Part shown: piece by piece, positions 38,894 through 40,317 of the stretch
How positions within the stretch are numbered: position 1 is the stretch's first letter
Layout: each line of letters begins with the position of its first letter
Assembly: GCA_016787645.1 (NCBI GenBank)
Contig: JAEUUF010000015.1
Span: 186,001 to 250,000 of the forward strand
From: Cyclobacteriaceae bacterium
Lineage (GTDB): Bacteria; Bacteroidota; Bacteroidia; Cytophagales; Cyclobacteriaceae
Reading direction: 5' to 3'
DNA length: 64,000 bases
The notes under the pieces: generated by a model
The model's input: only the letters and a program-made list of their open reading frames with translations
Told to the model about the DNA's origin: nothing
The model's database searches: none
Made by a program: the position numbers and the translations under genes

Positions 38894-38937
38894 GAATATT
38901 GAATATCGAACGCTGAATTTCGAATTTCAAAGTGCCA
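38894..38937. repeat. Left-end repeat, unit 1
   Basis: A 44-base AT-rich repeat with core GAATATCGAACGCTGAATTT; it differs from 39063-39106 at four positions by eye. Confidence 0.85.
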
Positions 38938-38991
38938 TCCAACTCTAGCGTTCCTTATTCTGCTTCTGAGCCTTTGTTTTTCCTTAACACT

Positions 38992-39062
38992 ACTTCATTA
39001 TTCAACATTCGACGTTCAATATTTGATATTTAATCCGCTGCGAACCGAGGACTCGAGGTGTC
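38992..39062. repeat. Right-end repeat, unit 1
   Basis: Aligns with 39650-39722 over about 73 bases with about 18 differences and one gap. Its inner part is roughly the reverse complement of the left end, about 24 of 32 positions, so the pair resembles terminal inverted repeats. Confidence 0.7.
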
Positions 39063-39106
39063 TAATATCGAATATCGAACGCTGAATTTCGAATGTCAAA
39101 GTACCA
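39063..39106. repeat. Left-end repeat, unit 2
   Basis: A 44-base copy of the left end, starting at the junction with unit 1 and ending 17 bases before the four-helix-bundle stop codon. Confidence 0.85.
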
Positions 39107-39122
39107 GTGATACGGAGGCTCC

Positions 39123-39521
39123 TTAAACAACATCAGAGCCTTGGCTGTTCCTTTGAGTGGTCTTCAGGCTGGCGACAAAGATCGCAGTTAGTTCCCTGGT
39201 CTCGGAGACTATGCCGGAGTCTTTCAAAAGCATTTTTCGCTCCAGAATCCTCAGATTAATGGAGCTTTCCCGAAGTTCTTTCGTAATCACTTTAAGCTTA
39301 TGCGTAAAATCCTTACGAGATTCGGCGCCCTGGGCCTCACCGTAATTAAGCGCTGGCGACGTTCCTGAACGCAACAATTGTCTTCCCAAATGATTGCCTA
39401 CCATAGTATCGGGGAGCAGCTCAACTACGTCAATAATTCGCAATGAGTAATTGATCAACCTTTCTTCAAGGTCATACTTCGGACCTGGTTTTGTCATGGG
39501 CTTTGCAGGCTTGATCTTCAA
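39123..39521 (-). CDS. Four-helix-bundle protein (23S rRNA intervening-sequence protein family)
   Basis: A protein of 132 aa, or 124 aa from the ATG at 39497. YDLEERLINYSLRIIDVVE, GRQLLRSGTSPALNYGEA and ESRKDFTHKLKVITKELRE are the conserved helices of the S23/IVP family of four-helix bundles. Members were first seen inside rRNA intervening sequences; free-standing ones have no known function, and the related Avd protein assists diversity-generating retroelements. No reverse transcriptase or rRNA is near. The gene sits between AT-rich end repeats that make it look like a cassette. Confidence 0.85.
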   Translation of the reverse strand: MKIKPAKPMTKPGPKYDLEERLINYSLRIIDVVELLPDTMVGNHLGRQLLRSGTSPALNYGEAQGAESRKDFTHKLKVITKELRESSINLRILERKMLLKDSGIVSETRELTAIFVASLKTTQRNSQGSDVV

Positions 39522-39649
39522 ACCTAAGCGCGAAAATATTTGATGTCAATCCGGAAACAGGGACGAAAAAGGCTGGGAATTCATGAAACGCAGACCTCTA
39601 CAATTCAGGATTGCCCTTAATCACAGGAGCTACATAAGGTGTTTGCCCC

Positions 39650-39722
39650 ACTTCATCATTTGAAATTTGGTGTTTGATATTCGATATTTCAACCTGCTGC
39701 AAACCCAGGATTTAGGGTGTCT
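39650..39722. repeat. Right-end repeat, unit 2
   Basis: Aligns with 38992-39062. Its last eleven bases form the final codons and the TAA stop of the exonuclease gene on the minus strand. Confidence 0.7.
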
Positions 39723-40317
39723 CATCCCACATCAACGACACCTTCAGCGCTTCGTACATCCGCAGGCATACCCAGGCATCGGTGGCCGCATAGCTGATTT
39801 GCTTTTCGTCCAGTTTGGGGGCTTCCCAGTTGCTGGTCTGGGCACTTTTGGAGATTCGAAAACCCAGAATCAGGGCGGTCAATTTTTTCACACCTTCTAC
39901 TTCAAATCCGGCTGCTTTGGTGAGCATCGTTAGCTCGAGGAATCCTTTTGGCGTGAATTTCTTCAACCACTGCAGGGCCTTGATGTCATCACGGATAGCG
40001 ACCCCGATTTTGAGAATGGCTTCATTTTCAAAGAAGGCCTTCATATCCGGGGTAAGCCCAGTGGCATTCAGGCGAAAGAGAAAAACCTTGTGTGGTATGG
40101 CCAGTTGCAGGATGGCTACCTTGTTGCGCTGGCCCCGGACGAACACCGGCTTAGTTTCTGTGTCGAACCCGACGTACTCATGGGCATTAATCTCGTGAAA
40201 GGCCGCCCGCACTTTCGTTGGATCGGAAATAACCACTACTTCGCCTTCATAAGCGCCGAGTGGCAGCTCATTCAGCTCCTCGTTGGTAATGTTCTTGCTG
40301 AAGTCCGGCCGATTCAT
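39712..40317 (-). CDS. 3'-5' exonuclease, DEDDy family
   Basis: A 201-aa protein with the exonuclease motifs: YVGFDTETKP (Exo I, Asp and Glu), LKIGVAIRDDI (Exo II region) and ISYAATDAWVCLRMYE (Exo III with Tyr and Asp). It is a stand-alone RNase D/WRN-type domain that degrades RNA or DNA from the 3' end in the cytoplasm. Its C-terminal residues DETP and stop lie inside a cassette end repeat, so the original tail may have been replaced. Its start overlaps the stop of the next upstream gene by four bases. Confidence 0.88.
   Translation of the reverse strand: MNRPDFSKNITNEELNELPLGAYEGEVVVISDPTKVRAAFHEINAHEYVGFDTETKPVFVRGQRNKVAILQLAIPHKVFLFRLNATGLTPDMKAFFENEAILKIGVAIRDDIKALQWLKKFTPKGFLELTMLTKAAGFEVEGVKKLTALILGFRISKSAQTSNWEAPKLDEKQISYAATDAWVCLRMYEALKVSLMWDETP

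Follow-up and report, generated by a model that had tools for sequence, protein, structure and literature searches.

The window analyzed here is a stretch of 64,000 nt from a Cyclobacteriaceae genome (GenBank assembly GCA_016787645.1, contig JAEUUF010000015.1, positions 186,001 to 250,000 of the forward strand). At 38894..39722, with an MFS gene on one side and an exonuclease gene on the other and not within a 23S rRNA gene, it contains two tandem units with related ends, which are termed arms here. The features, in window coordinates, are as follows:

38894..38937, + strand: left arm of unit 1, a degenerate array of a word of about 7 nt, inverted to 39000-39023
38952..38985, - strand: unit 1 remnant of the 3' end of an S23 gene
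39000..39033, + strand: right arm of unit 1, read in the sequence and inverted to the unit 1 left arm
39037..39063, no strand: 27-nt flank copy after unit 1
39064..39106, + strand: left arm of unit 2, an array of a word of about 7 nt, from alignment with the unit 1 left arm
39123..39521, - strand: S23/four-helix-bundle gene of unit 2 (TIGR02436, PF05635, AlphaFold model and PDB fold matches)
39650..39688, + strand: right arm of unit 2, inverted to the unit 2 left arm
39696..39722, no strand: 27-nt flank copy after unit 2, of which the last 11 nt overlap the 3' end of the exonuclease gene
39712-40317, - strand: exonuclease gene

Alignment of the two units gives 93% identity over 43 nt between the left ends (38895-38937 and 39064-39106) and a weaker match, 73% over 30 nt, between the right ends (39001-39030 and 39652-39681). 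Within each unit the ends form an inverted pair, 38895-38918 with 39000-39023 in unit 1 (83% complementary over 24 nt) and 39064-39102 with 39650-39688 in unit 2 (79% over 39 nt). The unit 1 interior (38952-38985) is identical to the 3' end of the S23 gene (39120-39153) at 25 of 34 positions, a match reached by 0/1000 shuffles when compared with this 3' end and by 2/1000 when compared with the whole unit 2 interior. These results bear out the original prediction of two tandem units with common ends, one holding an S23-type gene and the other a 3' remnant of such a gene, here of about 34 nt. The flank copies to the right of the units agree at 21 of 27 positions (0/1000 shuffles reach this), but a third copy to the left of unit 1, considered as a target duplication, is unsupported, as 216/1000 shuffles match it. 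The AT-rich ends consist of degenerate repeats of a GAATATC-like heptamer; by eye, the left arm is spelled GAATATC-GAACGCT-GAATTTC-GAATTTC, with a degenerate 7-nt period. Chance AT-richness as the source of the arms is ruled out by shuffles and by cross-locus controls. We consider it more likely than not that both units are copies of one small mobile cassette, arranged in tandem, of which unit 2 is intact and unit 1 carries an internal deletion.

The S23 ORF encodes 132 amino acids from a TTG start, or 124 from an ATG start. The protein matches TIGR02436 (E 7.7e-16) and scores 32.8 bits against PF05635, just below the cut-off of 33.8; PF05635 is its sole Pfam match at E 0.001, with neither PF22296 (Avd) nor a nuclease domain found at this level. 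As no nuclease domain was found, any cutting or copying step must come from elsewhere. The AlphaFold model has four long helices (mean pLDDT 89.9), and its nearest PDB folds are the S23-family entries 2rld and 2gsc, with a weak structural match to the Avd structure 4dwl (E 0.28). When the S23 protein of another locus (L021) was used as a sequence query, 2rld and 2gsc were both listed with five chains, which fits the pentameric state of this family. S23/four-helix-bundle genes give up to 15 matches per genome, and we know of no settled function for those that are free-standing. A tblastn search of phages with one S23 protein as query gave no S23 match. The closest relative of the window protein (L319) is 62% identical, and its arms are very similar by eye. 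Beside this relative (L319:1100-2200), a dxr-like gene seems, by eye, to have a duplicated 5' end; between the dxr-like copies lie a truncated second S23 tail and a right arm, in a pattern that resembles the tandem-with-deletion arrangement of the window.

The genome of the window contains seven PF05635 matches, all of which (7/7) lie between inverted arrays of a 7-, 8- or 9-nt word, with own-locus arm scores of 35-92. Each locus has its own word, on which the left and right arms agree and which differs from the words of the other loci; what the loci have in common is therefore their period, their polarity and the inverted arrangement. The original prediction had assumed fixed terminal repeats common to the family, an assumption that seven cassettes with seven different words contradict, and fixed transposon ends are rejected on the same ground. 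A search of the genome with the window end recovers the sequence elsewhere, as had been anticipated, but not the expected association with S23 genes: judged by coordinates, no PF05635 gene lies near the other sites among the matches listed. At three intergenic loci of this genome (L006, L008 and L010), several array words stand adjacent to one another, with GGGGTCA-, GCCTTCA- and GAATATC-like sequences.

Arms of this kind recur widely beside S23 genes, in loci that were chosen among the best-scoring matches and not at random. In a first set of 65 S23 loci from this genome, its relatives and the phylum, three of them cut by contig ends, 32 lie above the 99th percentile of scores for cross-locus pairs, compared with 0/130 pairs of control segments; no locus among the 65 scores higher than the cross-locus maximum of 489, a value due to homologous loci. 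An arm score of at least 30 is reached by 20 of 40 further Bacteroidota S23 loci, the other 20 falling below this cut. Local control genes reach it in 5/389 cases, those flanked by intergenic sequence on both sides in 2/76, and mismatched cross-locus pairs in 29/1560. Of the five control genes that reach the cut, one (L139:5200-5420) has in its left flank, by eye, an apparent S23 gene start, and may be a broken cassette miscounted as a control. Sequence flanking S23 genes shows raised autocorrelation at lags 7, 14 and 28, at which controls are negative; at lag 21 the autocorrelation is raised in both, to 0.034 in S23 flanks and 0.019 in controls. This and later analyses kept 102 of 105 loci, setting aside the three cut by contig ends, and a gene was obtained from 99 of those kept.

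The same layout is found on plasmids and in other phyla. All 12 plasmid S23 loci read, from 36 plasmid records with S23 matches and with no separate control set, have arms (scores 31-63), several of them nearly perfect. In a scan of named genomes that covered at least 80 S23 loci, 54 of 80 score at least 30, against 66/1816 mismatched pairs, and 26 of 80 lie below the cut; the 54 loci, grouped from record titles, span about 15 phyla. An archaeal locus (L205) scores 29, just below the cut. On an Azospirillum plasmid (L167), the S23 locus is inside an LSU rRNA gene and has arms of 7-8 nt like those of other cassettes; when 190 S23 loci were compared with its rRNA flanks, the only match was L167 itself. 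In Coxiella, the 23S rRNA intervening sequence (IVS) contains GACAGAT heptamer repeats upstream of S23 (PMC4990558), which is independent support for arms beside S23 genes.

Polarity was assessed on the left-arm strand, with the right arm reverse-complemented, in the 176 of 190 loci that have recurring dinucleotides. In 148 of these 176 loci, AG recurs with the period at least three times, and AG outnumbers CT in 140 whereas CT outnumbers AG in 11. G exceeds C in 94% of aligned left arms (n = 103). By eye, the S23 subfamily of the window seems to use GAAT/GATT instead of AG.

Comparison of filled and empty sites indicates that the S23 gene and its arms insert together as a unit, being present or absent together between intact genes. 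For the window site, 29 congener loci were fetched, 11 of which held both the MFS and the exonuclease genes; in all 11 the two genes are adjacent and cassette-free, and related genomes thus do have the empty sites that the original prediction presupposed. In a Nostoc plasmid operon, cassette A lies between genes 2 and 3 in L164, L257 and L258 and is absent from L251-L254, in which these genes are 3 nt apart. A second cassette, B, which has a different S23 and a different word, separates gene 3 from gene 4 in L253; it is absent from L251 and L252, where the stop and start overlap, as well as from L254 and L164. At the filled Nostoc sites, the stop of the neighbouring gene and the start of the next are both preserved. 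A site beside a TraM-domain gene is filled in L158 and L250 and empty in L248 and L256, and L249 (1234-1493) has there a gene-less inverted pair of heptamer arrays where its relatives carry an S23 cassette. A site between nrdB and nrdA is filled in L157 and empty in L255. This pattern of presence and absence suggests that the cassettes are actively mobile.

Target duplications at these junctions are 3-6 nt at best, at two Nostoc junctions, and are ambiguous, merging with the arm ends; no clear duplication is seen at an insert within a Nostoc S23 gene (L258; see below), and the flank repeat of the window is 27 nt. An ordinary transposon with terminal inverted repeats (TIR), paired with a MITE, having conserved ends and mobilized by a transposase encoded elsewhere, would explain the inverted ends, the internal-deletion copy and the empty sites. 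We regard this as very improbable, because each of the seven S23 loci in the genome has a different arm word and no constant target duplication could be made out at the junctions read. As with MITEs and their autonomous partners, gene-less copies do occur beside gene-bearing ones; unlike those of MITEs, the ends of the cassette are conserved only between the two tandem units of the window and not between loci, and the cassette encodes only S23 and no transposase.

Gene-less derivatives were found both within cassettes and apart from them. In L258 (956-1520), the S23 gene is interrupted by a 182-nt gene-less inverted array, the word of which is the same as that of the host cassette. A query made of this insert and about 85 nt of the gene matches 43 plasmid records at 96 places; among the matches listed, from which 18 of the 43 records are absent, 24 besides the source record cover the insert part. 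The idea of a repeat-bounded cassette family in the original prediction therefore stands, in that gene and ends insert together and gene-less derivatives such as the 182-nt element exist. In a 400-kb sample of the window genome, in which no S23 gene was detected, there are 31 gene-free arrays, of which 28, at the cut used, have no inverted partner within 1.5 kb. These are thus mostly single arrays rather than MITE-like pairs, and the MITE-like relation that had been proposed applies to some gene-less copies but not to most arrays. In L264 (1220-2175), an inverted pair of heptamer arrays surrounds an ordinary non-S23 ORF of 262 aa; arms are therefore not exclusive to S23.

The gene-free arrays resemble the S23 arms of their own genome (similarity 0.262) more than sets of seven random foreign arms (0.151, sd 0.009; 0/300 draws reach the own-genome value), a difference that may include base composition, which was left uncontrolled. 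In a census of 20-kb samples, arrays occur in 0/18 S23-free and 7/19 S23-rich genomes (p = 0.0027); this census was looser and confined to non-coding sequence, with a threshold chosen after the result of a first, stricter census, in which S23-rich and S23-free genomes were not separated (p = 0.087), and both ignore lineage. Two stretches under 5 kb were left uncounted, and one S23-rich stretch (L310) holds an S23 gene itself and adds no array. A 20-kb stretch (L272; G000:C25:220001-240000) contains ten heptamer arrays, far above the average of the sample from the window genome.

The abundance of gene-free arrays, 31 in 400 kb and 28 of them unpaired, together with the pair that encloses a non-S23 ORF, could be taken to mean that heptamer arrays spread on their own by slippage or conversion and that S23 genes land in or between them by chance. 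This is improbable in our judgement. The empty alleles at the four plasmid junctions are free of arrays by eye, except for L249, which also disfavours pre-existing arrays as landing sites; moreover, arms match within a locus far better than across loci, and the occurrence of arrays in S23-rich but not S23-free genomes, at the looser cut, points in the same direction.

The S23 protein and the word of its arms vary together. Similarity between S23 proteins and 5-mer similarity between their arms are correlated (rho 0.186) across 190 loci, in 17,374 pairs with non-homologous flanks; this value is reached in 0/500 permutations (mean 0.003, sd 0.040, maximum 0.135), whereas control sequence 500-900 nt away gives a correlation with S23 protein similarity of 0.060. 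The 581 pairs with homologous flanks were dropped. Phylogeny is only partly removed from the correlation. Similar proteins (0.74) of a Bacteroidota locus (L139) and of the cyanobacterium Aulosira (L162) have the word GTCAGAA in common. In the S23 subfamily of the window, the test is not significant (0.240 vs 0.205, p = 0.08; 23 loci); 25 of the 30 fetched loci were used as input, leaving out L318 (the window locus), L336, L337, L341 and L344; two of these 25, L339 and L346, were excluded because of their short length. The correlation suggests that S23 probably reads its arms.

The reading that we prefer, and hold to be somewhat better than an even chance, is that of a mobile cassette related to rRNA IVSs, in which an S23 gene lies within inverted arrays of a 7-9 nt word and S23 recognizes that word. 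It draws on the observed architecture, the recurrence of this architecture in numerous phyla and within one 23S rRNA gene, the joint presence or absence of gene and arms, the gene-less derivatives and the correlation of protein with word. S23 would probably form a ring of four-helix bundles, as in its solved relatives, and would recognize the word, which usually carries an AG per period, both in its own arms and in copies without a gene, thereby acting in trans as the recognition factor of the element. The two arms might fold back on each other, so that the insertion could stay silent; in rRNA, the loop is cut out by RNase III, as the literature describes. Strand cutting or copying could be provided by host replication or repair, or, by analogy with Avd, by a reverse transcriptase borrowed in trans.

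Folding of the arms might also be all that is needed. If arms are kept for pairing in the transcript, which would render the insertion harmless through RNase III excision or masking, S23 could be a passenger that does not bind them. The inverted layout is accounted for in this way; one 23S rRNA IVS carries the same kind of arms, in the RNA fold predicted for the window element the two arms are paired with each other at its base, and the ends of the Coxiella IVS form a 28-bp stem that is cut by RNase III (PMC4990558). Such an explanation, which we consider unlikely, leaves unexplained the link from S23 protein similarity to the word, the skew in polarity (140 vs 11) and the likeness of gene-free single arrays to the S23 words of their own genome, and the fold of the whole window element has a z of -1.16, with 2 of 20 shuffles folding equally well. 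Pairing at the RNA level and recognition by S23 may both be true together.

The proposed cassette can be compared with three known systems besides MITEs. Like the IVSs of 23S rRNA, it has an S23 ORF in a loop between inverted complementary ends that are able to form a stem, and the Azospirillum IVS has 7-8 nt arms of the cassette kind; unlike them, the window cassette lies between protein genes, and such cassettes occur in several copies per genome with different words. The Coxiella S23 is reported to be probably unexpressed (PMC4990558), which counts against the reading that we prefer.

The Avd proteins of diversity-generating retroelements (DGRs) are the closest S23 relatives with a known role. 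Avd serves its reverse transcriptase (PMC10053308), and this DGR accessory protein (PF22296) has its fold family in common with the window S23, according to the weak 4dwl match. The two differ in that arms are absent (0/8; scores 17-22) from the eight Avd-like loci with the highest-scoring Avd matches among those long enough to score (L349-L351 and L353-L357), and a reverse transcriptase gene adjoins in seven. These were from a set of 30 loci, of which L348, L352 and L358 were too short; the remaining 19 scored loci are weaker Avd matches, and many have arms. A motif search had found no reverse transcriptase beside the Avd-like genes, before Pfam identified RVT_1 in neighbouring ORFs at 7/8 of the best loci, with one ORF tested per locus. 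The ORF tested at L354 is an ABC transporter, and L354 is therefore not established as a DGR.

The short tandem heptamers of cyanobacteria, Xanthomonas and Beggiatoaceae are likewise 7 nt long, mostly intergenic and in part arranged as inverted pairs, but these published arrays are not tied to a gene (PMC4692102; PMC4679880), and the word S23 is absent from the main texts of both reports. In Xanthomonas, two genomes contain 70 and 75 inverted heptamer pairs, for which the text of the report describes no general link to mobile elements (PMC4692102). Within the portions of the open-access literature covered, no reported link of free-standing S23 genes to heptamer arrays was found, and heptamers beside an S23 ORF were found noted only for Coxiella (PMC4990558).

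More tentatively, and with less than even confidence, these cassettes might be domain-wide minimal mobile elements, in which an S23 ring reads a co-evolving 7-9 nt word and the arrays are the mobile ends; rRNA IVSs would be copies that landed in rRNA, and the orphan heptamers of cyanobacteria, Xanthomonas and Bacteroidota would be gene-less offspring or footprints. To our knowledge, rRNA IVSs have no agreed origin, and the heptamer repeats of cyanobacteria and other bacteria have no agreed source. A single element class, if real, would unite these two with the S23 genes, and each could be tested by binding or mobility assays. Ends with a fixed period and polarity but a free sequence would be an unusual terminus for a mobile element.

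On two cyanobacterial plasmids (L156 and L163), cas6 and cas4 have an S23 cassette between them, and a figure legend in a CRISPR survey includes a 23S rRNA IVP domain (PMC10910872).
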